Notes: generated by a model from the sequence alone, not told the origin. 64,000 bases of DNA from Flavobacteriales bacterium (GCA_028122735.1 JAOHSR010000003.1:1-64000), one strand, 5' to 3'; numbered from the stretch's first letter, positions 403 through 20,400 are shown. A program made the numbers and translations.

Positions 403-1431
403 TTGAAAAAATATTTAATTTTAATACTATTAATACCTTTTTTTTCTAGTTCACAAGTAAATTTAAGTTATGCTGAATCCATAAATAATAAGGACCTATA
501 TAAACATATAGAAGTTTTATCATCGGATTCTTTAGAAGGGAGAGAAACTGGTAAGCCAGGCCAAAAAATGGCTGCTGGATATATTGCAAATCAATTTAGA
601 AAAATAGGTATACCCCCTTACAAAAGAAAATCATATTATCAAAAATTTAAAGTTAAATCTGAAAGACATATATGTAAATGTGATGATTGTGATTTAGCTT
701 TTTTTAAGAGAATATTTAAGAGCAATCAAACTATTAGAGGTGAAAATGTACTTGGTTATATTGAAGGAAGTGATTTAAAAGATGAATTGTTAATTATAAC
801 TGCTCACTATGATCATTTAGGAAAACACGACAGTTTAATATTTAACGGAGCAGATGATGATGCATCTGGAGTATCTGCTGCTCTTGAAATTGCAGAAGCC
901 TTTATGTTAGCTAAAAAAGCGGGTCATGGTCCTAGAAGGAGTATTTTAATTATGCCAGTATCTGGTGAAGAAAAGGGTTTATTAGGAAGTAGATATTACA
1001 CAGATAATCCAATATATCCTCTTGAAAATACTGTTGCAAATTTAAATATAGATATGATTGGAAGACTAGATGATTGGCATGACAACGGAAACTATGTTTA
1101 TTTAATAGGATCTGATAGATTAAGTTATGATTTACACAATCTTAATGAAAAAATTAATGATGACTATATAAGAATAGATCTTGACTATAGATTTAATGAC
1201 AAAGATGATCCAAATAGATATTACTACAGGTCAGACCATTATAATTTTGCAAAAAATAATATTCCAGTAATATTTTATTTTAATGGAGTACATGAGGATT
1301 ACCACAAGCCAAGTGATACTATTGAAAAAATAGACTTTGATAAAATAAATACTATAACAAGATTAATCTTTCTTACTGCTTGGGAAATAGCAAATAGAGA
1401 TGAGAGAATAAAATTACGTGATGATTTATAA
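403..1431 (+). CDS. M28 family zinc aminopeptidase-like, secreted
   Basis: TTG start, signal peptide; AHYDHLG...NGADDDASGV...SGEEKGLLGS...NIDMIGR...SDHYNF metal-binding motifs of M28 peptidases. Confidence 0.9.
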   Translation: MKKYLILILLIPFFSSSQVNLSYAESINNKDLYKHIEVLSSDSLEGRETGKPGQKMAAGYIANQFRKIGIPPYKRKSYYQKFKVKSERHICKCDDCDLAFFKRIFKSNQTIRGENVLGYIEGSDLKDELLIITAHYDHLGKHDSLIFNGADDDASGVSAALEIAEAFMLAKKAGHGPRRSILIMPVSGEEKGLLGSRYYTDNPIYPLENTVANLNIDMIGRLDDWHDNGNYVYLIGSDRLSYDLHNLNEKINDDYIRIDLDYRFNDKDDPNRYYYRSDHYNFAKNNIPVIFYFNGVHEDYHKPSDTIEKIDFDKINTITRLIFLTAWEIANRDERIKLRDDL

Positions 1432-2106
1432 CTTATCGTAAGTATATAAATAAGCAGGTTTGTGTGCGACGCCTTCTTGTTTTTCTTTGGTCTTTTTAAT
1501 TACCTTAATTTTTGATATATTTTTTCTAAAGTTTCTTTTATCTAATTTTTCATCCAGCAGTATTTCGTAAATATACTGTAGTTGAGATAAAGTAAATTTT
1601 GAAGGCAACAAGTTTGAAATTATTTTATGATCAAGTTGAGTTCTAAGATATCTTAAGCCACTTTTTATTATTTCATTATGATCAAAAGCAAGATTCTTAG
1701 GAACATCATCTAAACCCACCCATTCAGCATCTAGAGCAAAAGAAGATGCTTGAGGTAAATAATCTTCCATCTTTACTAAAGAAAGGTAGCCAACTGTTAC
1801 AACACGTTCATTAGGATTTTTTCTATATAATGTCAACCAGGATTGGTCTTTTTTATCTTTGGTTCTTAAAGGATCCCCAAATGCACGAAATTGTTTAAGA
1901 AAAAGATTATCTAAAGAAGTTAAGCTTTTTAGAATTCTTTTAGCTCCACAAAGTAAATCTTCTTCAACTCCAAGTAAATCACCTGGAACAGCATATTGTA
2001 CATCTCCTTTTTTATTAATTACTTTTTTAATAAGTAATATTTTTAGTTTTTGATCATCATCAAAACCAAGAATTACACAATCAACAGATAAATTTATTAT
2101 GGACAT
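1426..2106 (-). CDS. Nudix-fold transcriptional regulator (NrtR/AraR-like): N-terminal Nudix domain with degenerate Nudix box plus C-terminal winged helix
   Basis: MSIINLSVDCVILGFDDDQKLKILLIKK...; C-terminal FTLSQLQYIYEILLDEKLDKRNFRKNISK is typical of NrtR-like wHTH; the REXXEE catalytic core is absent. Confidence 0.82.
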   Translation of the reverse strand: MSIINLSVDCVILGFDDDQKLKILLIKKVINKKGDVQYAVPGDLLGVEEDLLCGAKRILKSLTSLDNLFLKQFRAFGDPLRTKDKKDQSWLTLYRKNPNERVVTVGYLSLVKMEDYLPQASSFALDAEWVGLDDVPKNLAFDHNEIIKSGLRYLRTQLDHKIISNLLPSKFTLSQLQYIYEILLDEKLDKRNFRKNISKIKVIKKTKEKQEGVAHKPAYLYTYDKL

Positions 2107-2122
2107 AATTTTTTATTTTTTA

Positions 2123-3396
2123 TTATTTAACATAGAAAGGAATGTTTGCTGTTGCAACATTATTATAATCATCATAGACATAAACATAAAATCTGTAGGC
2201 GCCAGATCTAGAAGGGGCTTTTATTTTTATTAATTCATCAGATTCTGAAACAATATCATAGGGCAATGCATCCATTTTTACTTCAAAATCTCCCCCTGCT
2301 TTTTATCGTTATTTTCTTTTTGAAGCTCATATTTAAAAGTAAGCTTATCATTTTCTGGATCACTAACATCAATAGTAAATAAGCACTCCTTTCTTTTATT
2401 AACTCTTATGCTTTGATATTTTGTTTGCTCATTTAACAAAAAGGAATTTAATAAAGGAGCTTTATTTTTATTTGGGTTTTTTGCCCAATATGAATTTAAA
2501 ACATCTACACTTTCTGTTCCTTTACCGTCTTCAGTAAAAATACCATACCAAGTTGGGGTTTGCTCTTGTTTATGCCCCCATAGAAAACAATAACTTCCCA
2601 GGCATTGTTTAGAATCTTTTTGAATGTGAACATAACTATCTTTTCTCATTTTAGCTTTTTGAGAACTATTTGCCTCTACAGAAACTCCCCAAGAAGTTAA
2701 GGGAGACTCCCAATGCCCATACGGCCCCCATTCTGTAACCATATATGGTTTTTTCCAACCAAACTTTCTAATTTGATCAGCTAAAGGCCCAATCCCCCCA
2801 TAGGTGTTTATTCCTAAAATATCAATGCTTGGACAGAATTCTTTAATCATATTAACTTCTGCAACATCAATTCCTGCTGTAACTGTCATGGTTGGGTGGT
2901 TTGGATCAAGTTTTTTTATCATTGCTGCAATATCTTCAACAGCCTGCCAAACTTTAAAATTTGTATAAAAAAGATCAACCTCATTACCAACAGCCCACAT
3001 TAAAAGAGCGGGATGGTCTTTAAGCTCTAAGATAGCATTTTCAAAACCTTTCAATTGTGCTTTAATAGCGTATTCATCATTGTAATCAAATCCATGTCTT
3101 TCATGATTTACCCAGAGACCCATACAGACAGTAATACCTAATTTGTGAGCGCTATCTAAAACAGCCAAGCCATTTCCCGTTGCCCAGGTTCTAATGGAGT
3201 TTCCACCAACATCAGCAAGCTCTTTTAAATGCGTATCTCCTCCAGCGCCAAGAACATAGTAAGGCTGTCCGTTTCTTAAAAGCTGAAACCCATCATTAGT
3301 TTTAACAACCTCGGTTTTTTCATAAATACCTTGAGAGTATAAGCCACAAAAAGTTAGCGTAAAAAGTATAAAAAGAAATGTTTTTAAATGATTCAT
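2123..3396 (-). CDS. Secreted clan GH-A (GH2/GH5-like TIM barrel) glycosidase; apparent -1 frameshift near 2299 separates the C-terminal end
   Basis: ORF 2278..3396 has WAVGNEVD (acid/base) and VTEWGPYG (nucleophile) motifs. Reading continues in another frame from about 2299 to 2123 as GGDFEVKMDALPYDIVSESDELIKIKAPSRSGAYRFYVYVYDDYNNVATANIPFYVK*. Confidence 0.75.
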
Positions 3397-4742
3397 TATT
3401 TTACAACTTCTATTTTTTCTGTGTGTATTACTCCGTTAACATTAGACTTTAGCAGATAGACTCCAGGAGCTAATTTTTTATTAAATGTATAAGAGTGCTT
3501 GCTAGCTCCAAGTGTTTCATCTACTAAAACAGCAATCACTTTTCCGTGCATGTCTATGACTTCAATATTAATCCTTGAGGCTTTATTTAAGCTAAAACTT
3601 ATAGTTGATTGATTTGAAATAGGATTAGGAAAAACTGTCAGATTAAAATTTGAAGAAAGGTCATTAATAGAAACAGGAGCGGCAGATAGTCCAATGTCAT
3701 CAATATAATAAGTATCCCAATTTACCATCCCCGGGTCAAAAAGAAATACAACCCTGTCTACATTACCAACAGAGCTTAAATCAAAGTTAAGTTGTTGCCA
3801 GCTGTTGTTTTGCCAAATATTTTGAGTGAAGCCAACAACCTCTGTGCCATTATTTTGAAAAGATGTATATAAAGAAGTAGGAGGTCCATAAACCTTCATG
3901 TTAAAAAACGGAAATTGGGCAAAATCAAAATCTCCACTTAAAGGGTATGCAATAAAAATATCCTCCCCATTAGCATCGGGATTTCTAGTATATTCTCCAC
4001 AATACTTACTGGTATTAATAGAGTTGGTTTCTGGATTATAAGCATGATTTAGCCAACCGCTCATATAGTCGTAATCGGCACATGCAGTAGCAGAAGGACA
4101 CATTCCTAGATTCCAACTACAGTCCCAATCCGCTAAATCGCTTTGAGGGTTGTTTGTTACACCATTACATTGATTACTAAGTTCTGGCCCGTATAAATTA
4201 TCAAAATAGTAAGTGTCGTCTGTATTTGTTCCTGAATTAAAAAGAAGGATAACAGAGGTAAGCCCAACACTAGACATTCCCGGATCTGGTTGAGAGTCAA
4301 AGGTTAGGTTTATTGTTTCCCACTCATTAGTTGTTGTAGTTTGACCCAAATAAATACTATGTCTTCCTGTTGGGTAGTTTGTTGGTCCTGCAAGTGAAGA
4401 ATCTTCCAGAGTAATCTGAATAGGTATTCCAGGAGCAGGACTATAAACATCCACACTCATTGTTTTTGCCTCACTTACATAATCACTCACATCTTCTATA
4501 GGTCCGTTTCCAACTATAACCAATACATCATATAGCTCACCGGGATTTCTTACATACTGAGCACAAGTAGGGGAATTGTTAATGGGGCTTGAAATATCAG
4601 GATTAGCATATCTTGTGGTCATACCCCCGTGCGTAAATTCATAATAGCCCAGTCTGTTTTGTTCAAAATCATCCCACAAAACCTGCGAAGACAAGAATAG
4701 TGGAGTAGTTATCAGAAAAAATAAAGTAAAAATGTTTTTCAT
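3396..4742 (-). CDS. T9SS type A sorted protein with tandem carbohydrate-binding-like beta-sandwich domains
   Basis: Signal peptide; two repeats ending in DDTYYFDNLYGPEL / WDTYYIDDIGLS; C-terminal FPNPISNQSTISF...GVYLLKSNVNGVIHTEKIEVVK. Confidence 0.75.
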   Translation of the reverse strand: MKNIFTLFFLITTPLFLSSQVLWDDFEQNRLGYYEFTHGGMTTRYANPDISSPINNSPTCAQYVRNPGELYDVLVIVGNGPIEDVSDYVSEAKTMSVDVYSPAPGIPIQITLEDSSLAGPTNYPTGRHSIYLGQTTTTNEWETINLTFDSQPDPGMSSVGLTSVILLFNSGTNTDDTYYFDNLYGPELSNQCNGVTNNPQSDLADWDCSWNLGMCPSATACADYDYMSGWLNHAYNPETNSINTSKYCGEYTRNPDANGEDIFIAYPLSGDFDFAQFPFFNMKVYGPPTSLYTSFQNNGTEVVGFTQNIWQNNSWQQLNFDLSSVGNVDRVVFLFDPGMVNWDTYYIDDIGLSAAPVSINDLSSNFNLTVFPNPISNQSTISFSLNKASRINIEVIDMHGKVIAVLVDETLGASKHSYTFNKKLAPGVYLLKSNVNGVIHTEKIEVVK

Positions 4743-4747
4743 GGTTT

Positions 4748-5989
4748 TTAGTTTTTAGTTAGTTGAATATTATCTATTGACAAATCGGTATCATAAGCAA
4801 ATTTAAAATGGATTTGTTTAATTTTTGTAAGATCTATTTTTGATTTTCTTATTGGAAATTTATAAAGCGGGATTGATACACTTTTCCATTCAGAATTGCT
4901 TGAAGAATTTTTGACATAAGTGTAAGAAAGTTTTTTACCGCTATAATCTTCCAATGAAATTACAAAAGGCTTAAAAATATTTTCTTTAATGTCAAACTGC
5001 AGGCTAAAATCTTTTACGGATTTGCTAATATCTGTATAAAGCCAATTGTTCCAGCTTATACCAAAATCTAGCCAATCGCATTTTGTAGAGTCGGTTTTGA
5101 CAGAAATAAAATTATTGTCTTTTTTTGTTTTTAAAGAAAAGTTATTGCAGTGCCCTGACTCAATTCCCCAAGTGCCGTCTAAAGAGTTTGAAAAAACAGG
5201 TATTGGAGAAATAGAATCATAGACAGTAAGGTTTTCTTCAAGGCGTTTGTAGGGGTGATTGTATTTGATAATTTGTATGTTGTCTAAATATACATCAGTT
5301 GCGTCGTAACACTGTAGCAAAAGTTGCTTAACATTTGTAAGATCAATTTTATTCTTAATATAAGAAAATGTTTGAAGGGGAACCACAACTCTTGTCCAGG
5401 ACTGATCAATTTTTCCTCCTTCAATACCTAAGTAGCTAGCAGTAGCATAGCACTGATTTTCTGAATAGTCTTCCAAAATAAAAACAATAGGAAGCCTAGT
5501 TATAGATCCTTTTTCAACCCTGACCATAAGCTCTATGGCTGATTTTTCCATTATGCCGCTCATATCTTTTCCTTGCCAGCCATCCCAGCCAATACCCATT
5601 CCAATCCACTCACATGCAGGATTCTTATCTGTTTTTAGGTGAATGGAGTTTTTTGGAGTTCTTTTTCTGCTTTTCACTTTAACAGTGGGTAAATTATATT
5701 TTCTATCTACCTTTTCAAATGAGGTGTCAGCTAAATTTTTTTGCTTTGGGTTTTTAACTAAAGAATAGTCAACACTTGCATCATATGCTGAGAAGCTAAA
5801 AGGGTTGCAGAACCCTTCCTTTCCTTTCATACCCCAAACCTCATCACTACCACCAGTGGTAAATATTTCAGTTGAAGTAAAGCCGTCAATACCCTCGGTG
5901 TTTTCTATCTCCATATCATAAAGAGTAAGTAAATCTAGGTTTTTACACGAGCTGAAAATTAAACAGAAAAGGATGAGAATTCTAAACAT
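4748..5989 (-). CDS. Lipoprotein with two tandem CBM-like/CIA30-like domains
   Basis: Lipobox FSSCKN; duplicated pattern CEWIGMGIGWDGW...DVYLDNIQIIKYN and CDWLDFGISWNNW...DLSIDNIQLTKN. Confidence 0.7.
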   Translation of the reverse strand: MFRILILFCLIFSSCKNLDLLTLYDMEIENTEGIDGFTSTEIFTTGGSDEVWGMKGKEGFCNPFSFSAYDASVDYSLVKNPKQKNLADTSFEKVDRKYNLPTVKVKSRKRTPKNSIHLKTDKNPACEWIGMGIGWDGWQGKDMSGIMEKSAIELMVRVEKGSITRLPIVFILEDYSENQCYATASYLGIEGGKIDQSWTRVVVPLQTFSYIKNKIDLTNVKQLLLQCYDATDVYLDNIQIIKYNHPYKRLEENLTVYDSISPIPVFSNSLDGTWGIESGHCNNFSLKTKKDNNFISVKTDSTKCDWLDFGISWNNWLYTDISKSVKDFSLQFDIKENIFKPFVISLEDYSGKKLSYTYVKNSSSNSEWKSVSIPLYKFPIRKSKIDLTKIKQIHFKFAYDTDLSIDNIQLTKN

Positions 5990-5992
5990 TTG

Positions 5993-6985
5993 TTATTGAT
6001 TTAGTATTGGACTGCCTTCGCTCCAAACAATATAATCTACATCTGCCTTGGCAAAGCCAGATGCTGGATTTGCTAACAATAAGGTTCTGAACTTCAAAAT
6101 TTTATTTGGTTCCCTTATAGCATTCCCCCCACTATTCCAAGCTAGAATTAGGTCGCTATATTTTACAGAATACATTTTCCATCCATTCCAGTTAACATCA
6201 AACTCAACCTCTAAACGATCTTCTGTGTTTTGGTCGTAATACCCATCTTGATTTTCATCTTCGTAAAACTCTAGCTTAAATAAGGAGTTAGCCTCATTTG
6301 TTGGTGAGAGCGTGCTATCTCCTTTAATCATCATGTTAAAGTATACATTATCAGGGTTAGCGTTAAGGGTTCCTTGTTGAAGCCAATGGCTGGCAGGATA
6401 ATCTATATATCCGATTAACCAATCCCAGTCACAAGTTCCTTCTTGAACAAGAAATCGATCGGACTGACCTGCATCTCCAGTCTCAATTTTTTTAAGACAA
6501 GTGGATTGAAAAAAGTTTGTGAAATTTGGATTAAACCCGTTTTCAAAATCACTTACAACAAGCTCGCTACCATTACCATAATTTTTGGCTCCATTAATTA
6601 CAAAAGAATTAGAGATTGTATCTGAATGCATAGGAAAAGTTAGTAGAACAGAGCAATTTTCTTCTTTGAAAAAAGGAAGCAGAGAAACCTCACCTCTCCA
6701 AAGACTATTGGTAGCGTTAATTTCATTTGATTTTCCAATGATAATTTTTTCAGCACCAGAAGAAAGTCCAGTTATTGAGATTTTCCAGTCTACAATTTTA
6801 GAAAACTTAGCTGTAAAATAAGCGGACTCACTTGTAAAGCTTGCCGAATCCCCAACAATCATAAAGTTTTCAATAATATTTAGCTCTCCAAAGAGGTCGT
6901 TTAAATTCGGCCCCTCTATCCCGTCTTTCTCACAGGAAATAAATAAGGCAGCTAGTAAAAGAAATAAATAGGTTAGTTTTTTCAT
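5993..6985 (-). CDS. Lipoprotein, putative surface glycan-binding protein
   Basis: Lipobox ALFISCEKDG; acidic DENQDGYYDQ motif; position within glycan operon. Confidence 0.6.
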   Translation of the reverse strand: MKKLTYLFLLLAALFISCEKDGIEGPNLNDLFGELNIIENFMIVGDSASFTSESAYFTAKFSKIVDWKISITGLSSGAEKIIIGKSNEINATNSLWRGEVSLLPFFKEENCSVLLTFPMHSDTISNSFVINGAKNYGNGSELVVSDFENGFNPNFTNFFQSTCLKKIETGDAGQSDRFLVQEGTCDWDWLIGYIDYPASHWLQQGTLNANPDNVYFNMMIKGDSTLSPTNEANSLFKLEFYEDENQDGYYDQNTEDRLEVEFDVNWNGWKMYSVKYSDLILAWNSGGNAIREPNKILKFRTLLLANPASGFAKADVDYIVWSEGSPILNQ

Positions 6986-6988
6986 TTT

Positions 6989-8701
6989 TTATAAATTCAT
7001 ATTAAACATAAAGTAAATTCTAGAAAGCGAAAGTTGGCTTATTTCGCTTGTTTTGTCGTCAATATCTATTTTGTTTGTTTGTAGGCTAAAATAAATATCA
7101 TTAGTAAAATTATACTGCAGGCCAAGCATCAAAATATCTTCTTTAGAATCAAAATCTAAAAGTTCATAACCAACAACCTGATCGTATTCATCTCTTTGTG
7201 ATCCAACCTCATTACCCTTACCGGTAAAAGATTTAAGCCCTCCAATAATTTTTAAGTTTTTAAACAGCTCATAGCTTAGGCCCGCGCTTAACATCATGGA
7301 ATTAAAAGAAATTGCTTCAAGATCAGAACCTCCTCTTTCAACATTTTCGTTGCTAACAGAAGCCTCAAATACTGTTTTGTTTTTTAGCGGACTTAGTTTG
7401 TCAAGATGAGCAGTTAGCATAAGCCCAGAAGAGAGCAGGGCTCTTTTTTCTGTCGTTCCCTGACCAATAAGCTCTTTGTAATAGGCTGCTTCAGTCGAAA
7501 CTAAAACAGAGTTGTCTTTATTTTTGTACTCAAAAGAAAAACTAGGACCTACTCTGTTTGGAGTGGCCTCTCCATATGGAGTTACAGCGGTATATAACGT
7601 GTTGTAGTGCATTAATGAGGTTGAAAGACGATTATTGTAAACGTTAGGGTCTGTTGTTATGTCCATCATGCTTACAGGTCTTAAGAGGGTGTTATTAGTA
7701 TAATAAGCATATGATGATGGCGCAGAGATGTAGTTGACTCTTCTGCTTTGCGCCCCGGCGCTTCTAAAGTCAGGATCTACATAGCTAAACCCAATAGAAG
7801 TCATTATTCTTTTGTTTGTGGCTTTTAAATGCCCCTTAAAAAATCCTCCACTGACCTCGTATATGGTCGACTCATTTTTTTCCTGCCATCCCCTTGTTGA
7901 CCCTCCCAGATCAAGGCTCAGCTTGTAGTTTAAATTGTTAATTTTTTTAACATACTCAAGTTGTAGATTAGTAACGGGATTGTAGTATGTTGCCGTGTCA
8001 AGACTTGAGCTTTGAACCTCAAAAGAATTTACATGGTTTATCGCCACAGAAAGATTGTTTTCAAGCTTAATCAATGATGTCCCCCCCAGCATTAACAATT
8101 CTGGCTCTCCAAGCCACTCCACACCCCTTACTCGGCTTGCAAAAAAGTCTGCTTCAACAGACTTAATGGCGTTATAAAAAGTATATGAAAAGTTAGACTG
8201 TAATCCCTGCATTCTCCAATAATCATCAAGATAGAAGTTTTCATACTCAATAAGGTCGCGGTACGCCTGAAACACACCAGGCTCATTTTTTGAAAGTTCC
8301 TGTTCAAAATTATTAAGCGTAAAGGCAGTTTGTTTTAAAAACATATCCCCAAGATTAAAGCTTATTCTGTCATTTAGAATTCCTTTAACAGAGAGTCTTC
8401 TTAAATCTACATATGCCCCTGAGCCCCACATATAGCCAAAATCATTTTTTATTCTAATTTCAGAGAAAATTTCTATTTGATTATTTGGTGTGAAGTGCAT
8501 TCCCAGGTCTATAGCAGTATACCCCTCTCCCTCGCTTCTTGTGGATGTGGTGTCAATATCTTTTAAATCTCCCGAAAGAGCATCTCTGTAAAACATTGCT
8601 CTTGAGTTTCCATCATACCAAACCTTTTGCGCAATTTGTCCAGAACTTAGTAGTGGTGTTAGAATTAAAAAGAAGATGAGGTTTTTTATAAATTTTATCA
8701 T
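6989..8701 (-). CDS. Outer-membrane beta-barrel protein
   Basis: Signal peptide ending SSGQ; alternating amphipathic strands throughout; C-terminal aromatic strand SLSRIYFMFNMNL. Confidence 0.65.
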   Translation of the reverse strand: MIKFIKNLIFFLILTPLLSSGQIAQKVWYDGNSRAMFYRDALSGDLKDIDTTSTRSEGEGYTAIDLGMHFTPNNQIEIFSEIRIKNDFGYMWGSGAYVDLRRLSVKGILNDRISFNLGDMFLKQTAFTLNNFEQELSKNEPGVFQAYRDLIEYENFYLDDYWRMQGLQSNFSYTFYNAIKSVEADFFASRVRGVEWLGEPELLMLGGTSLIKLENNLSVAINHVNSFEVQSSSLDTATYYNPVTNLQLEYVKKINNLNYKLSLDLGGSTRGWQEKNESTIYEVSGGFFKGHLKATNKRIMTSIGFSYVDPDFRSAGAQSRRVNYISAPSSYAYYTNNTLLRPVSMMDITTDPNVYNNRLSTSLMHYNTLYTAVTPYGEATPNRVGPSFSFEYKNKDNSVLVSTEAAYYKELIGQGTTEKRALLSSGLMLTAHLDKLSPLKNKTVFEASVSNENVERGGSDLEAISFNSMMLSAGLSYELFKNLKIIGGLKSFTGKGNEVGSQRDEYDQVVGYELLDFDSKEDILMLGLQYNFTNDIYFSLQTNKIDIDDKTSEISQLSLSRIYFMFNMNL

Positions 8702-10677
8702 TAGAAATTAATTTTTAGTTCTATTGTTGTTTCGCTTCCTTTAATATTAGTTTCAATAAAGTTCTTGTCTTTGAAGCTAAACCGGCTATGTCTTAAAAAT
8801 AAAAAAGCACCATCATTTAGCTGAACATCAACACCCAGCCCAAAAATTTGACCAGTTTGATCTCTCGGTTTATAAGAAGGGGTATACGCCTGTTCTCCAA
8901 GATCAACACCAAGAGCGCTTATGGGAAAAGGGTCATAAGTGTCTAGTTCTGTTTTATTGCTAGCAACAACCCTTTCAATAGCATGTTTAAAAACTAGAGA
9001 AACTCTTTGGCTTAATGAATAGCACACATCAAACTGATGGTTAAACTGGCGAATAAAAGCTTCCTCCGACATTGTAGGAAGCACGCTCAAAAAATCTTGA
9101 GCAGTATTGTAGTTTGTTAGAGAAAACAAATAAAGGTCTTTATTAAAAAGGCGGGTTTTATATTTTAAGTGTAAGTCAGATGCACAATAAAACTTATCAA
9201 ATAAAGGAGCGCCAAGAGAATCCACAAGCAGACTATCAGTAACAGGGACATTTTCATAAACGCCTCGATAATAGGAGTTAAGATGGCTATACGGGCCATA
9301 GCCTGTGCTAAAATATGAGATTCTAGAAAGGATAAGTCCAGTTGAAATGTGATTGTAAGATAAAATAGAGTTAATTCGTGTTAGCTCTGAGTAAAAACCA
9401 AAGCCGCCTGAAATGGTAAAGTCTCTTGCCTCAAACTCCGTGTTTATGCTAAAGCCTTGCCGATTGTTTGCTAAATACCCCAGGTTAGAAACAGGTCCGC
9501 CAAAACTGCTCATAATTGTTGGCTCTCCCCCTTCTTCAATAACGGTAGTTTGTACAAGATCTGACACGGAAGTGTTTGTAAATGAGGAGTTAACATTTGC
9601 AGCTTCAGCAGCAATCCTAGAGTATTGAAGCTGAATAGGAATCCCAGTATATTCTTTTGGAGAAGAAAGGTTAATAATTACCGCCTCACCACTTGATTTC
9701 TTAACATTTGCAGATTCATATGATCCAAGGCCAACCTCCCCAAAAAGATTAATTTTTTTGAAACTATAGTTAAACTCAAAGGTTGACATGTCATAGTTTC
9801 TTTTAGTGTATGAGGTAGAATCTGTTGCGGTTTTTGAGCTAAAATAGTTTAGAGAGTAGCTGTTTCCCTTTGATGTTGTTTTGTTAAAACGAAGTCCAAA
9901 ACAATAATCGTCTTTGCCGGGAGATACAATATTTGCAATGTTGTTTTGTGTTTTTCCCAAAACACCTTGAAAAGAGAATCCATCGGTAAACCACCAAGGA
10001 AAGCTATTTCCGCTAAAAGTAATTCCCTGAAAAGCAACATTACCAAAACGTAAATCTTGATCAATTGCTCCCTGGTCATAATATTTTTTATAGCGATCTA
10101 CAGCGTTTTTATTTAAAGGATCGTACGGTGCTCTTTCAAACAGGCTATATCTTAAATACCCCTCTTCCGCCCAAACGGTAAGCTTACTTTGTCTATACCA
10201 TGATATTCCTCCGGCATGTACTTTAAACTTTCCGTAATCCGAGACAAGTGTTGAATAAAAATTGGTTCCAAGATTTAATGAAATAGAGCTGTTTTCTATA
10301 TTTCCGTCAAAAGAGCTGTTGAGCATTAAATCTGTTCCAAAGGTTATGTTTTTTTTAGCGGTACCTCCTATTGATAGCAGCATCATAGGCTCTCGATAAC
10401 CAGTACCAACAGAAATAGTTGTTTGTTGTGGAAACACCCCGCTGTAATAGCTTGGAATATCCAAAGGATACATTGTTGGAAGGTCTCTTACAAATCCTAA
10501 AAACCTAAAATAACCCCCAAACTTAATGTTAGAAACCGGATCTTTTATTGAAAGAGTGGAGCTTTTAAATGCATTTTTAGGAACAAAAGTACTGTCTTTT
10601 GTTTGGGCTAAAGCGCTAAAGCTTGTAATGCTAAAAGCAAATACTATGCAAAAAATTAGTTTAAAGCCCCCGCTCAT
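8701..10677 (-). CDS. Large outer-membrane beta-barrel (porin-like) protein
   Basis: Signal peptide; KFGGYFRFLGFVRD start of barrel; many amphipathic strands; C-terminal TTIELKINF. Confidence 0.65.
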   Translation of the reverse strand: MSGGFKLIFCIVFAFSITSFSALAQTKDSTFVPKNAFKSSTLSIKDPVSNIKFGGYFRFLGFVRDLPTMYPLDIPSYYSGVFPQQTTISVGTGYREPMMLLSIGGTAKKNITFGTDLMLNSSFDGNIENSSISLNLGTNFYSTLVSDYGKFKVHAGGISWYRQSKLTVWAEEGYLRYSLFERAPYDPLNKNAVDRYKKYYDQGAIDQDLRFGNVAFQGITFSGNSFPWWFTDGFSFQGVLGKTQNNIANIVSPGKDDYCFGLRFNKTTSKGNSYSLNYFSSKTATDSTSYTKRNYDMSTFEFNYSFKKINLFGEVGLGSYESANVKKSSGEAVIINLSSPKEYTGIPIQLQYSRIAAEAANVNSSFTNTSVSDLVQTTVIEEGGEPTIMSSFGGPVSNLGYLANNRQGFSINTEFEARDFTISGGFGFYSELTRINSILSYNHISTGLILSRISYFSTGYGPYSHLNSYYRGVYENVPVTDSLLVDSLGAPLFDKFYCASDLHLKYKTRLFNKDLYLFSLTNYNTAQDFLSVLPTMSEEAFIRQFNHQFDVCYSLSQRVSLVFKHAIERVVASNKTELDTYDPFPISALGVDLGEQAYTPSYKPRDQTGQIFGLGVDVQLNDGAFLFLRHSRFSFKDKNFIETNIKGSETTIELKINF

Positions 10678-10680
10678 ATT

Positions 10681-12987
10681 TTATTTTAGATTAAAAGTGG
10701 CCTGAAGATTTTCTATATAAAAAGAGTGTTTGCCAGGCTCATTTATCCAAAGATTATCATAATTGTAGAATCCAAGCTCATCAAAAGTTACTTTAAAAGA
10801 AACTGTTTTTGTCTCCCCAGTTTCCAGCTCCACTTTGTTGTAGCGAACAAGTTTTCTTAGAGGAGGTGAAATCGATGCAAAGTGATCACGAGCATAAAGC
10901 TGGACAACCTCTTTTCCAGCTCTTTTTCCTGTGTTTTTAATATCTACACTAATAGTTATTTCCTTTTCTGAAAGTAGATAATCATTTTTTTCAATATTAA
11001 TATTGGAGTATTCAAAACTTGTATAGCTTAAGCCAAAACCAAAATTATACTGAGGGTTAAAAAAGTCATTTTTCCAAGTATTTGCGTTTATAAGCTCAGA
11101 TTGTTTGTGGTCATAGTGCATAATAACGCCGCTATGTCTTGGGTAGGTATAGGGTAGTTTTCCGCTAGGATTTGTTTTTCCAAACAAAATATCTGCAAAA
11201 GCCTGCCCCCCCTGATCTCCAGGTAGATAACACTGAACAACGGCATCAGCTAAAGGCTCAATAGCTGAAATAATTTTAGGTCTACCCTCAACAAGAGCAA
11301 GAACAATTTTAATTCCCGTTTTAGAGAGCTTCTTAATTATTTCTTGCTGCTCTTTTGCCATGTCAAGAGCATAGATATCCCCAGGTCTTTCAGTTGATGG
11401 CAGCTCTCCAAGACAAACAACAGCAACATCATAGTTGCTGGCATTTTTAACAGCTGTTGCAAGGTCAGAAGAATAAAAATCAGCCTCATCACCATTTACC
11501 ATTTTCATGGTAGACCCCTCAAAGTGATCACATGATTGAGCGTTGTTTTTTACTGCCTGGTAAATAGTTGGGTTTTTAGTGTTGTTATATTGCGGGTCAA
11601 CTCCTTGCCAGGTGTGTGTCCACGCTCCATTTAAACAATTTAGGCTGTTAGCTGTTGGACCAATAACCATGATTCTTGAGCTCGTACTTAGAGGTAGTAA
11701 TTGTTCTTTGTTTTTTAGTAGTGTAATTGATTCTGTGGCCGCCGCATATGCCTTTTTAGCATGAGATTCAGATCCGAAATCGGGATAATCATTTTTATTT
11801 GTATATGGGGTGTTAAATAAATTAAGCTTATGTTTTACTCGCAATATTCTTCTTACAGCATCGTCCAGCCTTTCTGTTTTTACCCTTCTATCATTAATAA
11901 GTTCTAGAAACAGTTTGCAGTAGTTTTTATATTCGGGGTTGTTAGGAACCATACTCATATCAACACCGGCATTTATTGCCGTGGCAATAGCATCTTTTAA
12001 AGTTGAGTCTGTTTGAGCTACCTTATAAAGGTTGATAAAATCTTCCCAATCTGAAACTGAGAACCCTGCAAAACCCCAATCCTCTTTTAAAACATCAGTT
12101 AACAGGTGTTTGTTTGCGTGTCCAGGAATTCCATTTACCTCACCACTATTTACCATTACAGTAAGGGCCCCACTTTTTATTGCGTTTTCAAAAGGAGGGA
12201 GGTGGTACTCTTTCATTGTTCTCTCAGGAATAAGAGCAGGCGTTCTATCTCTTCCTGTTCTTGGGAAGCCGTAACCAACATAATGTTTCAGACAAGCCGC
12301 AACATGATCTTTATCAACATTACCTTCTCCTTGATATCCCTGCACAATTTTTGTTCCTAAAGTTTTTGCCAAATAAGTGTCTTCGCCAAGTGTCTCAAAA
12401 AATCTAGACCAAATAGGAACCCTTCCTAAATCTAAAACCGGAGAGAAGTTCCAGGGCACCCCAGAAGCCCTTGTTTCATAAGCAGTAACCCTTCCCATTT
12501 CTCTTGCCATAGCCGTATCCCAGCTTGCAGCTAGTCCAATTTCTTGAGGAAAAAGCGTGCTGTTTTGAATGTATGTTGCCCCATGAATTGCATCTACGCC
12601 ATAAATAATAGGAATTTTTAGACCCGAATTTGTGGCCTTTTCCTGAATGGTTTTTATTATTAGATTCCAATTTTCAAGAGTGAAAGTGTGATTTGAAACA
12701 TTTAAAATAGAGCCAACTTTATAAATATCGATGGCCTCTTCAAGTTTTTTAAGATCAATTTGATGAGGCTCAATTAAAACATTTTCAGCATCTTTTTGTA
12801 GTATGGCATCTAAGGTTATTTGACATGTTTGACCAACCTTTTCTTCAACGGACATTTTTTTAATTAGAGCATCAATTTCTTTTTCAGCTACAGGATCAAG
12901 CTCAAATGAGCTTGTGCTTTTATTGTTATCACAAGAAAAGAGAAAAAGAACAAAAAGTAATAAAGTAAATACTGAATTTGTTTTCAT
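10681..12987 (-). CDS. GH3 beta-glucosidase-like lipoprotein (BglX-type)
   Basis: Lipobox LFSCDNN; IYGVDAIHG, KHYVGYG, GFSVSDWEDF nucleophile region; C-terminal Fn3-like domain. Confidence 0.93.
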   Translation of the reverse strand: MKTNSVFTLLLFVLFLFSCDNNKSTSSFELDPVAEKEIDALIKKMSVEEKVGQTCQITLDAILQKDAENVLIEPHQIDLKKLEEAIDIYKVGSILNVSNHTFTLENWNLIIKTIQEKATNSGLKIPIIYGVDAIHGATYIQNSTLFPQEIGLAASWDTAMAREMGRVTAYETRASGVPWNFSPVLDLGRVPIWSRFFETLGEDTYLAKTLGTKIVQGYQGEGNVDKDHVAACLKHYVGYGFPRTGRDRTPALIPERTMKEYHLPPFENAIKSGALTVMVNSGEVNGIPGHANKHLLTDVLKEDWGFAGFSVSDWEDFINLYKVAQTDSTLKDAIATAINAGVDMSMVPNNPEYKNYCKLFLELINDRRVKTERLDDAVRRILRVKHKLNLFNTPYTNKNDYPDFGSESHAKKAYAAATESITLLKNKEQLLPLSTSSRIMVIGPTANSLNCLNGAWTHTWQGVDPQYNNTKNPTIYQAVKNNAQSCDHFEGSTMKMVNGDEADFYSSDLATAVKNASNYDVAVVCLGELPSTERPGDIYALDMAKEQQEIIKKLSKTGIKIVLALVEGRPKIISAIEPLADAVVQCYLPGDQGGQAFADILFGKTNPSGKLPYTYPRHSGVIMHYDHKQSELINANTWKNDFFNPQYNFGFGLSYTSFEYSNINIEKNDYLLSEKEITISVDIKNTGKRAGKEVVQLYARDHFASISPPLRKLVRYNKVELETGETKTVSFKVTFDELGFYNYDNLWINEPGKHSFYIENLQATFNLK

Positions 12988-12991
12988 ATAA

Positions 12992-14461
12992 TTATTTTAT
13001 AAGTAAAAGTTTTTCTGAATAGAATTTGTTTTCTGAATAGTACGAGCAATTATAAATACCAGCAGGAAGGTGTAGAATGTTTATTGTTTTGCCTTCTAGT
13101 TTGTCTTTTTTAAAAACAACTTTTCCAAGTAGTGTTGTTATTTTGAGGTTTTTAGTATTATTTGCAGAAAGACTAATAAGCCCACTGCTCGGGTTTGGAT
13201 ACAAGCTATTCCCCAAGCTAGACAGCTCATTTACATCAGAGATGATAATAGAATTACATGTTGGGGTGCATTGCCCCCACTTTGGACAGATAACCTTGTT
13301 TTCGTCAATAACAATCGTTCTGTTTGTATATTGAGTGTTTCCGTTTGTACAAGCCCATGCTGGGTCTAATGACTCGGCAATAGACCAATTGTCAGCACTA
13401 AATTTTAGTTCGTAATAACCCTCTAGCATTGTAATTTGTTTTTCCCAAATACCATCCCCATCTAAATCTTCCATTGGCCAACAACTTCCACACCAGGTGT
13501 TAAAAGTTCCATTAACCTCAGGGGTAGTAAAAGATTGAGAGACATCATTCATGTCAACTCTAAAGGTTACAAGATACTCACAGCTTCCATTAGCAATTGT
13601 TGCAGAGGAGTTATAGTTTGTTGCTTGAGGATCTTTACACCCAAGAATTCCAGTATTTTCATATACCCTTACATAATCTACTTCAATTTGAGAGGGAAAA
13701 GATGTTAGTGAGTTTGGACCGTTATCAGTAACTGCAAGATTTAAGATTAAGTACCAATCATTAGAATTAAAAGGCCAAGAATGTTGGTTTGGAATTGTTG
13801 GATAGCTTGAGGGAGAGAGCTGATAAACCTTAACGCCATCAATAAACCAAGCAATATAGTTTTCGTCCCACTCTACTGCATAATTGTGAAAGCTAGAAGC
13901 AAAACTTCCTGTTTGTATTTGGTGTTGAAATGACTGATAAAAAGATTGTCCCGGACATGAGCCCACGTGGGCAGCACCTGTAGTTTCTACGGTAGGCCAG
14001 TCATTTGCCCACTGCTCCATAATATCAATCTCGCCATCACATGGCCAAGAACCACCAGAGGGCAGCATCCAAAATGCAGGCCAAAACCCTTCGCCATTTA
14101 CGGTTTTCATTCTTGCCTCAATCTTACCATACCTTACTTCAAACTTATTTTCAGTCTTGATTTTTGAAGAGCTATAGTACATGGTATTTCCCCAACTATC
14201 AACTATACCACCCGGCTCTTCTTTAACAATAATTTTTAGTGTTCCATTGCTCACTTCAGCATTACCAGCTTGATAAAATTGCAGCTCTCCATTTCCCCAG
14301 CCCCACAGACCGTATTGACTTCCTGTTCCAAGATCATGTGTCCATTTTGTTTGATCTAAAGTAGTTCCAGAAAAATCATCTTCCCAAACTAAAGACCAGC
14401 CTTGTGAGTAAGAGGTGTTACAAAAGCAAATTAAAAACGTAGCGATTAATAAATTTTTCAT
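12992..14461 (-). CDS. GH16 endo-beta-1,3-glucanase (laminarinase-like) with CBM-like module and T9SS type A CTD
   Basis: WPCDGEIDIMEQ matches the GH16 ExDxxE motif; then GCKDPQATNYNSSATIANGSC, VTFRVDMNDVSQSFTTPEVNGTFNTWCGSCWPMEDLDGDGIW module, and YPNPSSGLISL...LLLIK CTD. Confidence 0.93.
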   Translation of the reverse strand: MKNLLIATFLICFCNTSYSQGWSLVWEDDFSGTTLDQTKWTHDLGTGSQYGLWGWGNGELQFYQAGNAEVSNGTLKIIVKEEPGGIVDSWGNTMYYSSSKIKTENKFEVRYGKIEARMKTVNGEGFWPAFWMLPSGGSWPCDGEIDIMEQWANDWPTVETTGAAHVGSCPGQSFYQSFQHQIQTGSFASSFHNYAVEWDENYIAWFIDGVKVYQLSPSSYPTIPNQHSWPFNSNDWYLILNLAVTDNGPNSLTSFPSQIEVDYVRVYENTGILGCKDPQATNYNSSATIANGSCEYLVTFRVDMNDVSQSFTTPEVNGTFNTWCGSCWPMEDLDGDGIWEKQITMLEGYYELKFSADNWSIAESLDPAWACTNGNTQYTNRTIVIDENKVICPKWGQCTPTCNSIIISDVNELSSLGNSLYPNPSSGLISLSANNTKNLKITTLLGKVVFKKDKLEGKTINILHLPAGIYNCSYYSENKFYSEKLLLIK

Positions 14462-14465
14462 CTAT

Positions 14466-17351
14466 CTAGTTTTGAATGGTGATTTTTTTACTAACAACTT
14501 CATTTCCAATATATACTGAAATATAATAAAGACCATTTTCTTTAATATTTAAAGCGTGTTTGTTTTTGTTCGTTTTGTTCACTTTTGAATAAACAAGCTT
14601 TCCTAAAACACTGTAAACATCAATTCTAGAGGTTTCTTGTGGGGTATTTATGTTTATTAGTCCTGATGAAGGGTTTGGATAAACAAAAACACTATTTAAA
14701 TTGTTTTCTGAGACCCCTGTCTGTCCTTGACACTCCACACAGCTATTCCAACAAACAGCGTCTAGCTCAATCTCCGAATCAATAACTAAATATCGGTTAA
14801 CAAAACCCCATCCATTAGGAGCGCCTGGGTCAAATGCAACAGTAACACAGCTTGCTGTAGAGTCAAGATCTTCTTGAATATTCCAGCCATCAGCAGAGAA
14901 CTTATACTCTACCGTGTCTCCAGCAGAAAGAAGCGCTGTGAACTCCCAAACATTATCTCCATTGTCATCTGTCATTGCCCAACAACTTCCGCACCAGCTA
15001 TTAAAAGTTCCGTTTACCTCTGGAGTTGTAAAAGGAGGACCAACATACTCAGACATGTCTAACCTGAACGTCACATTATATGAAGAAGGTCCAGAGCTTG
15101 ACAAACAATCCTCACACGATTGCCAGCAAACAGGTTCTAAAATTGTATCTTGATTTACATGTAGTATTCTATTTGTAAAACCATTACTTGACACTGTACA
15201 GCTGTCTCCCGAAAAAAGATTCTCTTCAATTGTCCAGTTGTCTACAGAGTATTTATACTCATAAGAGCCGGAATCTATTAAGATAGTTATTTCCCATATG
15301 GAATCGTTGTTTAGGTCCTCAAGTTGCGTACAGTTTCCACACCAACCATTAAACATTCCGTTTAACTCGGGAGTAATATATGTAATATTTGTAACTCCTC
15401 TTAGATCTAGCTGAAAAGTAACGCTATAGCCATAGACACAAGTACTGTCATCGCAAGTTGCCAATGGGTCATAGTTATTTGCTAGAGTATCAGTGCATCC
15501 ATAACTAGTTAAACAGCTTCCGTCATCACAATTTGCAATAGGGTCAAAATTACACGCCATAGTGTCTGTACATCCGAAATTGTTTAAACAACTTCCGTCA
15601 TCACAAGTCGCTAAAGAATCATAATTACAAGCAAGAATGTCCGTACAACCATAAATTGTTAAACAGCTTCCGTCGTCACAAGTTGCAAAAGGATCAAAAT
15701 TACAGGCTAGAGAATCGGTACAGCCGTAGATCGTTAAGCAGCTTCCATCATCACAAGTTGCTAAAGCGTCATAATTACAAGCAAGAACATCCATACACCC
15801 ATAATAACAATATACACAGGAGCTGTCATCTATAGTTGCGAGGGGATTATAGTTTAGGGCAGTAGAGTCTGTACACCCATAGGTTACTTGAGGGAAGACA
15901 CAAGAGTCTGGGCAATTAGCCAAAGAGTCATAGTTAAGAGCTGCCGGATTCATACAGCCATAAATTGTTAAACAGTTTCCATCATCGCAGGTAGCTAGCG
16001 GATCAAAATTACAGGCTAAAGAATCTGTACAGCCATAAAGCGTTAAACAGCTTCCGTCATCACACGTAGCTAGCGGATCAAAATTACAGGCTAGTGAATC
16101 GGTACATCCATAAGATGTCAGGCAACTTCCATCATCAAAAGTTGCTAAAGTATCAAAATTACAAGCAAGAGAGTCTGTACACCCAAGAGTACAGTCGTTA
16201 CAAGAGCCGTAAGTGTCGCTACTTATATATTCAGGTACAATAGTGATTAATCTGTTAGCATATGTAGAATAGTCTGTAATAGGGGCGCAAGTACCGCCGG
16301 CTTGCATATCATCTACCAAATCTTCCTGATAAGTCCAGCTGTCTAAAGCGTATTTGTATTCAAAGTCACCAATGGGTAAATCAAGAGTTATGGAATATAT
16401 TCCATCCCCATCAGGGTCAGACAATATTACACAGCCACCACACCAGTTAAAATTAGGGCTTTCCAAATTAACTTCCGAAAAAGAGGTTGTATCGCAATTC
16501 ATATTAACATTAAATGTTGTGCTATATAGGCAGCTTCCATCATCAATTGTGGCAAGAGAATCATAATTTGCAGCAAGTGTATCCGTACATCCATTTACAC
16601 CAGTAATAACACAGTTATTCCATGAAGAGGAAAATGTTGTGTCACTATTTACAATAGCAGCTCGATTAACAAAGCCCCAACCATTAGGAGCCCCCGGGTC
16701 ATAGTTAATTGTGATGCAAGATAGAGAAGAATCAAGGTCTTCTTGAATAGTCCAGTTATCAGCAGAATATTTCCATTCTAAAGAATCTCCAGGACCAAAA
16801 GATGTTGAGAATTGCCAAACACTGTCTCCATCAGCATCAGTCATTGGCCAGCAATTACCACACCAACTGTTAAAACCTCCATTCACTTCTGGTGTTGTGT
16901 AAGGATCTGTAACTCCTCTCATATCAACCTCAAAAGTTACACTATAAGAAGAGGGCCCTGAACTACAGCTACTGCATGAGCCCCAACAAACAACAGGAAG
17001 AGTTGTATCTCCACTAATAGTTAAAACTCTGTTGGTGTATTGAGTGTTTCCGTTTGTACAGCTATCACCAGAATATAAAGATTCTTGTATAGTCCAGTTG
17101 TCAGCAGAGTATTTAAACTCGTAAGTTCCATTAGCTAAATCTATAGTAACATCCCAAATATTATCACCATCAAGGTCTGACATTGCAGCACAGTTTCCAC
17201 ACCAACCATTAAAAGTTCCGTTTACTTCAGGGGTGGTAAATGTTGTTGGGTCAACATCACTCATGTCAACTTGAAAGGTTACATTGTTTTGAGCTATTGT
17301 GCTAAAGCAAAAAAGAAACAACGTCAATAGATGTGCTAAAATATTTTTCAT
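14466..17351 (-). CDS. Modular T9SS surface protein: five VDM/EVNGTFNxWCGxC modules, about eleven GCTD...DDGSC repeats, type A CTD
   Basis: Read directly from translation; CTD YPNPSSGLININTPQETS...YISVYIGNEVVSKKITIQN. Confidence 0.8.
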   Translation of the reverse strand: MKNILAHLLTLFLFCFSTIAQNNVTFQVDMSDVDPTTFTTPEVNGTFNGWCGNCAAMSDLDGDNIWDVTIDLANGTYEFKYSADNWTIQESLYSGDSCTNGNTQYTNRVLTISGDTTLPVVCWGSCSSCSSGPSSYSVTFEVDMRGVTDPYTTPEVNGGFNSWCGNCWPMTDADGDSVWQFSTSFGPGDSLEWKYSADNWTIQEDLDSSLSCITINYDPGAPNGWGFVNRAAIVNSDTTFSSSWNNCVITGVNGCTDTLAANYDSLATIDDGSCLYSTTFNVNMNCDTTSFSEVNLESPNFNWCGGCVILSDPDGDGIYSITLDLPIGDFEYKYALDSWTYQEDLVDDMQAGGTCAPITDYSTYANRLITIVPEYISSDTYGSCNDCTLGCTDSLACNFDTLATFDDGSCLTSYGCTDSLACNFDPLATCDDGSCLTLYGCTDSLACNFDPLATCDDGNCLTIYGCMNPAALNYDSLANCPDSCVFPQVTYGCTDSTALNYNPLATIDDSSCVYCYYGCMDVLACNYDALATCDDGSCLTIYGCTDSLACNFDPFATCDDGSCLTIYGCTDILACNYDSLATCDDGSCLNNFGCTDTMACNFDPIANCDDGSCLTSYGCTDTLANNYDPLATCDDSTCVYGYSVTFQLDLRGVTNITYITPELNGMFNGWCGNCTQLEDLNNDSIWEITILIDSGSYEYKYSVDNWTIEENLFSGDSCTVSSNGFTNRILHVNQDTILEPVCWQSCEDCLSSSGPSSYNVTFRLDMSEYVGPPFTTPEVNGTFNSWCGSCWAMTDDNGDNVWEFTALLSAGDTVEYKFSADGWNIQEDLDSTASCVTVAFDPGAPNGWGFVNRYLVIDSEIELDAVCWNSCVECQGQTGVSENNLNSVFVYPNPSSGLININTPQETSRIDVYSVLGKLVYSKVNKTNKNKHALNIKENGLYYISVYIGNEVVSKKITIQN
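15465..16195 (-). repeat. Tandem in-frame 75-bp coding repeat (25 aa: YGCTDSLACNFDPLATCDDGSCLTI)
   Basis: Repeated units at 75-bp spacing, e.g. gttaaacagcttcc at 15658 and gttaagcagcttcc at 15733. Confidence 0.85.
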
Positions 17352-17480: not shown

Positions 17481-20400
17481 CTATTGAAGAACTATCTTTT
17501 TGTTTACAACACCATTATTTGTTGTAATTTCTAAGAAGTAAACCCCTTTAGTGTATTTAGACATGTTTATCGATTTAGTGTACTCTCCAACAAACTGCTC
17601 AAGGCCTTCGGAGTAAACCAACTCTCCAACCATATTCAATACTCTTACTTCTAAGTTTTGAATATCTTCAGACACAAAAGAAACATTAAAGATGCCGTTA
17701 GAAGGGTTTGGATAAACCTCTAGATCATTAATTTGACTTCCCCCATCTAATCTAATTGGAACAACACCAGGTTGTGTCCAGGTAATTGGACTTGTCCAAT
17801 CTGATCGGTAAGATGTTACGTTTACATCACAGAACGTTCTTCCTTGAGCTCTATATTCAGTTCCAGATTGAAGTCCAAACTTATTTACAGAATATGTAGG
17901 GTAGAACACTCCAAATCCACCAGCAGTCTGCCAGTTAGAACCTACAGTATTTACTCTTAGGGCTACTCTAGCAAAAGTATAAGGGCCGGTTTCTGTCCAT
18001 GTGAATCTTGCCTTAGAATCATTAGAGCTAAACGTTTCAACCATTAGCGTATCCATCTCTGGACAAGCATCTTGAGTTGTGAATTGATCTGAATATGAAT
18101 ATCCTGATTCACCACCTCCACAATAAAAGGCTTTCATTTTGAATTCGTAAGTTGTTGAAGCCATAAGACCTCTTAGTACCTTAGAAGTGTTAGGCAGTCC
18201 AACATTGCATAGTCCAGACCCAATACCAGCAGCTTTAGTTGTCCACGTAAGAGTTCCTACCTCACGATATCTTACAAAGTATTTTTCAACTCTACAGCTT
18301 CCACTGTTAGCATCATTCCAGTGAATAGTTGCCATCTCAGCATAAACATCACTTGAGTTTAATCCAATTGGATATGGTGCCGAACAGTTGTATCCATATA
18401 AGCATGAACCATCGTCTACCATTGCAGAATCGTTGTAGTTAAATGCTAAAGAATCTGTACAACCTTGAACACATTCAGAGCAAGAGCTATAAGTATTATC
18501 AAATATAGGGCTTGAATTAACCACTTGTTCAACAACTGAAACATTATCTATTGAGCCTATTGCAGAGTCTAATGGTTGAATTCTAAATCTCTTATCATTT
18601 GCTGCCGTGATGTATTCCGAATAGACACCCGCAGCGCTTCTTTCAATACCAGTTACGCCTCCTATTTTTGCCCTATACGATCCTTTTGAAATATTCACAA
18701 CTTCGTAAGTAACTAAAAAAGTTGTATTAGCTATACCAATAACACTTGCTTGGCTTATAGTATTATCTGTTGTGCCAAGCGAAATTGCTACGCCATTTTG
18801 TATGGTCCAGTTAGCACCATTAGACCATCCAGTATTCCCATTAGAAAAACTTCCATTAGTAATAAGTTCACCTGAATTTGCAATAAGTCCATTAACATCA
18901 ACAAGTCTGTTGGCATATGTTGCGTAATCAGTTATTGGAGCACAAGAAGCGCCGCCAACCATATCGTCAATTAAGTCTTCTTGGCCAGCCCATCCATCAA
19001 CAGCATACTTGTATTCAAAGTTTCCAGCAGGCAGATCAACAGTTACAGAGTGAACCCCATCACCATCAGGATCAGTCATTGGAACACAGCCACCACACCA
19101 GCCAAATACAGGACTTTCTAAGTGAACATACCCAAATGAACCAGCAGGCTCACAATTCATATCTACATTAAATGTAGTTGAGAATAAACACGAACCGTCA
19201 TCATCTGTTGCAAGAGCATCATAGTTTATTGCGCCAGCATCAGTACATCCATTTACTTGGTCACAAATATCACAAGATCCATACGTATCATCCAATACAG
19301 TTCCAGCTGAAACATCCACTAATCTATTAGCATAAGAGAAGTAGTCAGTTACAGGAGCACAAGAAGCTCCGTTCTGCATATCATCAACTAGATCTTCTTG
19401 ACCAGCCCATGAATCTACAGCATACTTGTATTCAAAATTACCAAGTGGTAGGTCAACAGTTACAGAGTGAACCCCATCACCATCAGGATCAGTCATTGGC
19501 ACACAACCACCACACCAGCCAAATACTGGGCTTTCAAGATGAACATATCCAAATGAGCCAGCAGGCTCACAATTCATATCAACATTGAATGTGGTAGCGT
19601 AAACACAAGACCCATCATCTAAGTCTGCTAAAGGATCAAAATTAGAAGCAGCCGGATCAGTACATCCAGGAGGGCATACACTACATCTTCCATAAACATC
19701 AGAAGTAGTCGAGTTGGCAGCCGCTTGTCTGTATGCATATGATAAATTATCCGTATATGGAGCACACGTGTTAGTTCCATTTAACATTTCGTTAAATAGG
19801 CCAGCGAATTCAGAATCCGCCCAAACATCAACAACGTACATGTATACAAAGTTATCAGTAACACTGTGAGTTCCTTCCCACACTCCATCACCGTCAGCAT
19901 CAGTTAATAGGTATGTATTACCTGACCAGTTGTCTAAGAATCCTGTTGCAGCTAATGTTGTAGGAGTTAAGCCTGAACAAGTCATGTCTACTGTAAAGGT
20001 AACATCATACTCACAAGAACCATCATCTGTAGTCATTGTTGAGTCATAATTATTTGCTAGAGGATCTGTACAGCCAGCAATACATGCAATACACGATCCG
20101 TAAGTGTCAGAAGTATTGATTCCAGGAGTTGCTGTTACTAATCTATTTGCATATGAGAAGTAATCGGTTACTGGAGCACAAGTTTCTCCACTTACCATAT
20201 CATCAACCAAGTCTTCTCTTGAAGAATTGTTGTCAATTGAGTAGAAGTAAACAAAGTCTCCACCAGGAATATCAACAGTAACTGAATAAATACCATCCAT
20301 TTCTGGATCTGACATTTGAGTACAGCCTGTAAAGCATCCAAAATAAGCGCTTTCTAAATGTACTGTAGAGTAAGTTGTTGGGTCTTCACAATTCATATCT

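Follow-up and report, generated by a model that had tools for sequence, protein, structure and literature searches.

The window is the whole 64-kb stretch of Flavobacteriales DNA that was analysed, which is part of a 79-kb contig in a genome of 1.03 Mb (59% complete). Two adjacent genes, here named A and B, are held in a same-strand gene run that extends from 23489 down to 1426 on the minus strand. The genes of this run are as follows:

17481..23489, minus strand: 2002-aa T9SS-tailed multimodular protein (MAM, CBM48, X25, fn3; sequence analysis), the probable cluster start
14466..17351, minus strand: 961-aa T9SS-tailed protein with CBM48/X25/AMPK1_CBM modules (profile match)
12992..14461, minus strand: GH16 protein with a T9SS sorting tail, a predicted surface endo-glucanase (profile match)
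10681..12987, minus strand: GH3 beta-glucosidase-type lipoprotein with a lipoprotein-like start, directly upstream of A (profile match)
8701..10677, minus strand: A, a protein of 658 aa and outer-membrane beta-barrel type, encoded by the leading gene of the pair (strand-rich model, without a Pfam family)
6989..8701, minus strand: B, the 570-aa partner of A and likewise of the outer-membrane beta-barrel type (the next gene after A in 97/97 loci)
5993..6985, minus strand: c6, 330-aa lipoprotein with a FISC lipobox, a probable surface glycan-binding or accessory protein (after B in 90/93 loci)
4748..5989, minus strand: c5, 413-aa lipoprotein with tandem CBM30-like modules (CBM30 at 4.2e-17 in two stretches, alignment)
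3396..4742, minus strand: c7, 448-aa protein with a T9SS sorting tail and a weak CBM4_9 match (profile match)
2278..3396, minus strand: c4, GH158 protein of the endo-beta-1,3-glucanase family (family profile against structures 9oro, E = 1.8e-131, and 6pal, 7.2e-99)
1426..2106, minus strand: c9, NrtR/AraR-type winged-helix regulator, the last cluster gene (profile match)

The run combines glycoside hydrolases, glycan-binding proteins and a regulator in an operon for one glycan. No Pfam family above the cut-off was found for c6, and c7 was present in the beta-glucan loci of the host's GTDB family. The GH158 protein has a plain signal peptide and no T9SS tail. Its copy in the window is broken near the 3′-end (2100–2500, minus strand), and the missing C-terminal part can be read downstream in another frame. 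GH158 is intact in relatives, and the interruption is either an assembly error or a real mutation. The starch-type CBM matches in the 2002-aa protein (17481–23489, minus strand) were unexpected beside a beta-glucan cluster.

The initial annotation had described two adjacent ORFs of 570 and 658 aa with the common base 8701 and a signal peptide on each, and this description was confirmed. Both ORFs start with ATG. Their junction is TTCTAATGATA, in which the TAA stop of A overlaps the ATG start of B (TAATG). The N-terminus of each protein has a hydrophobic signal-like stretch. The C-terminus of A is IELKINF, with F658 nearly invariant among the A homologues, and that of B is FMFNMNL. Both proteins have the features of outer-membrane beta-barrels, namely a signal peptide, a strand-rich sequence and a C-terminal aromatic/hydrophobic strand. 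Profile comparison of the window proteins and their homologues assigned neither A nor B to a Pfam or NCBIfam family, and sequence search found no PDB relative, in agreement with the earlier view of the pair as uncharacterised. A monalysin-like NCBIfam match of A was rejected as chance (E = 0.029, 13.9 bits against a cut-off of 120). Mutual homology of A and B was not supported by hhalign (probability 6.7). The pair is not a chance occurrence, because dozens of full-length homologues were found for each protein and B follows A in every locus of the 97.

AlphaFold2 models were built from 38 and 37 sequences for A and B, respectively. The model of A contained approximately 25 strands (pLDDT 63, pTM 0.65) and that of B approximately 22 strands (pLDDT 76, pTM 0.75), which bears out the initial claim of strand-rich proteins ending in an aromatic or hydrophobic strand. 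Neither model had a separate N-terminal plug domain, and the predicted strands start shortly after the signal peptide. The absence of a recognisable plug had also been noted before, and it held across the homologues: Plug, TonB-receptor and CarboxypepD_reg-like domains were detected in none of 32 A and 30 B homologues. All 50 PDB matches listed by Foldseek for each protein were outer-membrane barrels, including AlgE, Occ/OprD, MOMP, chitoporin, ushers and others. These matches were generic, with TM-scores to the target of at most about 0.48, identities of 6–12% and models of modest confidence. The models thus describe A and B as probable barrel-type proteins, larger than usual porins and plug-less, and their outer-membrane location is predicted from sequence and model. 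The OprD/Occ porins, chitoporin and AlgE, to which A and B are related by predicted barrel type, are outer-membrane beta-barrels that pass sugars, uronates or polysaccharide. However, they are smaller (approximately 320–470 residues in the matched chains), share 6–12% identity and a low TM-score with A and B, and act as single proteins, whereas A and B form an obligate pair.

It is very improbable that either protein is a TonB-dependent receptor of the SusC type that has diverged so far that its plug is beyond recognition. The approximately 22 strands of B equal the TonB-receptor number, and some Foldseek matches of A were TonB receptors, including the levan SusC 6zlt. The structure prediction of CHU_1276, an outer-membrane protein of Cytophaga hutchinsonii considered below, reportedly matches TonB receptors as well (PMC12016534). 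However, the 62 homologues contained no Plug or TonB-receptor match, the proteins are too short for a 22-strand barrel with a plug of normal size, and their predicted strands begin soon after the signal peptide. Another reading takes A and B as secretion or presentation proteins that move the lipoproteins or enzymes of the cassette to the surface and do not import sugars. The FimD/PapC usher barrel is one Foldseek match type of B, and lipoproteins always adjoin B in the cassette. Against this, no usher accessory domains were found, the surface enzymes in the window bear T9SS tails of their own, and surface lipoprotein display normally needs no dedicated pair for each substrate. We regard this secretion role as improbable.

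The longest predicted loops of A and B were at least as conserved as the strands. Aromatic-rich loops were predicted at A 158–216, A 442–474 and B 119–164, and also at B 309–332 and B 341–382, with several at approximately 20% aromatic residues. The long loops of ordinary porins are not conserved in that way. In the models, the conserved aromatic loops of A and B suit a binding or interface role. They could also be docking surfaces or interfaces of an outer-membrane scaffold, on which surface lipoproteins and hydrolases would dock while oligosaccharides enter through other porins or TonB receptors. Two large barrels would be an expensive scaffold, and we consider this explanation unlikely.

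The A/B pair is one instance of a widespread cassette and not a lone curiosity. Conservation of the neighbourhood had been proposed as a check on the pair, and it was found to be strong. B was directly after A in all 97 non-identical A loci with room downstream, the order A-B-c6 was seen in 90/93 loci, the order A-B-c6-c5 in 76/90 loci, and GH158 was in the cluster in 75/90 loci. The commonest spacings between A and B were −1 (35 cases) and gaps of a few bases. Across 69 loci, the pairwise distances of the two proteins were correlated with r = 0.974, compared with 0.77 (A) and 0.72 (B) against GH3. In the host's GTDB family, A was present in 26 and B in 24 of 52 genomes, covering 11/15 genera. 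A profile search for A found it in 55/298 genomes of the host's order, in 48/395 of the class (sampled Bacteroidia), in 108/329 genomes of another order, and in four genomes outside the class. Relatives with names are MAGs and single-cell genomes of marine Flavobacteriales and other Bacteroidetes. No plasmid-borne relatives were found.

GH16, GH158, GH3 or a sulfatase was present within approximately 8 kb of A in 97 of 106 non-identical A loci. The pair had been considered unusual and tied to a glycan operon, an idea that would have failed if homologues were widely found away from glycan genes. They were not, and the tie was borne out. Six of the nine A loci without these enzymes are explained or likely glycan loci: four with GH18 (L230, L238, L239, L240), one with GH9 (L234) and one at a contig end (L212). 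Two others (L185, L186) have a high GC content and poorly called ORFs. L231 is the one clear exception: no glycan enzyme is visible there, and A and B, together with two c6-type lipoproteins, lie beside genes for a histidine kinase and an adhesin-like protein with a CHU_C tail.

The enzymes around the cassette were divided into four main contexts. The first, as in the window, comprises GH16, GH158 and GH3, frequently accompanied by an SSF or MFS carrier. The second comprises FGE, several sulfatases, GH16 and GH158. In L106–L144, which are of this second type, an additional A/B locus, paralogous to the first, contains GH158 homologues along with 2–4 sulfatases, FGE and GH16, and this composition suggests a sulfated beta-1,3-linked glycan as the substrate. 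The third context is GH9 with GH3 (L232, L234). The fourth is GH18, found in L220, L230, L238, L239 and L240; L230 also encodes an SSF sodium symporter and a glucosamine-6-phosphate isomerase. The GH18-type loci L220, L230 and L239 are predicted to be chitin loci free of SusC/D. In addition, the cassette adjoins GH97 at L229:7016-18499, which is perhaps an alpha-glucan version. The A/B cassette stays constant while the enzymes change among beta-1,3-glucan, sulfatase, GH9, GH18 and GH97 sets.

A tree of A and B with strict context labels required 8 context changes, compared with a mean of 28 and a minimum of 21 in 500 shuffles, although context is inherited among related loci, so that the shuffle makes independent events look more numerous than they are. 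The split by context is not a species split, because GH9, GH18 and beta-glucan types come from one small family and yet are separate. That A and B sequences divide by predicted substrate also speaks against a scaffold, which need not do so.

SusC and SusD were nearly absent from the setting of the pair. SusD (PF07980) was found in 2/52 genomes of the host's marine GTDB family and was not found in the host genome (59% complete). No SusD-family lipoprotein lies beside A and B in the window cluster, and neither protein has a recognisable plug of a TonB-dependent receptor, so the locus lacks both marks of a SusC/SusD-type PUL. The near absence of SusD is a further point against the scaffold. Among 142 related loci, SusC or SusD homologues were near the cassette in two (L172, L173). 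Both have a SusC-type receptor a few kb from the cassette, with SusD also in L173, and the two systems can coexist in one region. The beta-1,3-glucan PUL of Bacteroides uniformis (1,3GUL) comprises SusC, SusD, SGBP-B, GH16_3, GH158 and GH3 (PMC7157763). It has in common with the window GH16, GH158, GH3 and a surface glycan-binding protein in one locus. The outer-membrane core differs, being SusC (a TonB receptor) with SusD in B. uniformis and the plug-less A/B pair without SusD here. A laminarin PUL without susCD has been reported from a marine MAG, and the passages of that report concerned with it propose no replacement (PMC10108472).

The closest known arrangement is chu_1276-1280 of C. hutchinsonii, an 'atypical PUL' with the order outer-membrane protein, outer-membrane protein, SGBP-like protein, bimodular SGBP-B-like protein and GH9 endoglucanase (PMC12016534, PMC6247017). 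The A/B cassette has the same gene order of two outer-membrane proteins, a beta-sandwich SGBP, a bimodular CBM/SGBP and an endo-glucanase. The two outer-membrane proteins are adjacent in fixed order (97/97 loci). Two predicted SGBP-like proteins, c6 and c5, follow them, the second with two CBM-like modules (76/90), and c5 is the positional counterpart of the SGBP-B-like CHU_1279. The endo-glucanase is GH158 in 75/90 loci and GH9 in the cellulose-type loci. The GH9-type loci L232 and L234 reproduce chu_1276-1280 gene for gene. The protein at the CHU_1279 position in the GH9-type loci has 381 aa and two modules (CHU_1279 has 375 aa), with Y..F at 256/259 or 257/260 and F at 350 or 351, close to Y253, F256 and F343, the binding residues published for CHU_1279. 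The enzymes differ, with GH16/GH158/GH3 for beta-1,3-glucan in the window and GH9 for cellulose in chu_1276-1280. The range differs as well: the 'atypical PUL' has so far been reported in three cellulose-degrading species (PMC12016534, PMC6247017), whereas the A/B cassette extends over several orders, with four or more enzyme contexts. The two share their gene layout and are very probably the same kind of system. L232 and L234 lend indirect support to a possible sequence homology between A/B and CHU_1276/CHU_1277.

For cellulose use by C. hutchinsonii, the genes chu_1276 and chu_1277 (for outer-membrane proteins), 1279 (for an SGBP-B-like protein) and 1280 (for GH9) are important, whereas its SusC/D pair is dispensable (PMC12016534, PMC5553014, PMC6247017). 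The chu_1276 mutant grew poorly on 0.1% glucose (PMC12016534), which points to uptake and not to a scaffold, and CHU_1277 has been tied to cello-oligosaccharide assimilation (PMC5553014). On the other hand, loss of CHU_1277 or CHU_1276 lowers the cell-associated (surface) beta-glucosidase activity (PMC5553014), and the CHU_1279 protein is required even in a form with crippled binding (PMC12016534). Both observations fit a scaffold.

We propose, with a probability of roughly 0.6, that the outer-membrane core of a SusC/SusD-independent cassette for oligosaccharide capture and uptake consists of A and B; the cassette would be a widespread variant of the atypical PUL. At the surface, T9SS-secreted GH16 and CBM proteins would cut and hold laminarin-type beta-1,3-glucan. 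The lipoproteins c6 and c5 would act as surface glycan-binding proteins that present oligosaccharides to A and B. The latter, translationally coupled and co-evolving, may pair into a complex of two barrels through which long oligosaccharides enter; we infer that A and B bind each other, form a pore and carry the oligosaccharides. GH158 and the GH3 lipoprotein would finish digestion in the periplasm, and inner-membrane sodium:solute or MFS carriers, as seen in related loci, would take up the sugars. Passage of long oligosaccharides is proposed because an endo-acting enzyme inside makes most sense that way.

The initial annotation had left the choice between a passive or novel transporter and a scaffold for the surface hydrolases. 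Its glycan-gene tie stands (97/106 loci), and its alternatives are now weighted towards the novel transporter, because the pair apparently occupies the position that SusC/SusD have in PULs for beta-1,3-glucan, and because uptake-like defects have been published for mutants in the corresponding Cytophaga genes. Against uptake independent of SusC/D, L172 and L173 carry both systems, and the reduced surface beta-glucosidase after CHU_1277 loss fits a scaffold too.

A broader proposal is that A and B give Bacteroidota one more general route for glycans across the outer membrane. The machine would consist of two plug-less barrels in obligate partnership, served by dedicated surface binding proteins. 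It would have diverged into forms for different substrates (beta-1,3-glucan, sulfated glycan, cellulose, chitin and possibly alpha-glucan), spread over several orders and beyond the class, and would be used in place of SusC/SusD, possibly without TonB. We advance this tentatively and give it somewhat less than even odds.

The susC/susD pair usually serves both to define PULs in Bacteroidota and to search for them, so A/B clusters would be missed or filed as CAZyme clusters without susCD, a convention followed in PMC10108472. If A and B are a true uptake core, the use of laminarin by marine Bacteroidota with small genomes has been undercounted, and cellulose use without SusC/D in Cytophaga, a puzzle so far, becomes one case of a widespread system. 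The pair apparently points to a widespread, little-studied way in which bacteria take up algal and plant sugars, and it raises the question of whether two plug-less barrels can import long oligosaccharides. A and B also provide a simple marker gene pair for searches. A decaying cassette was seen at L165 (G114:C2:153000-170000), in which A has an internal stop and B, c6 and c5 are fragmentary.
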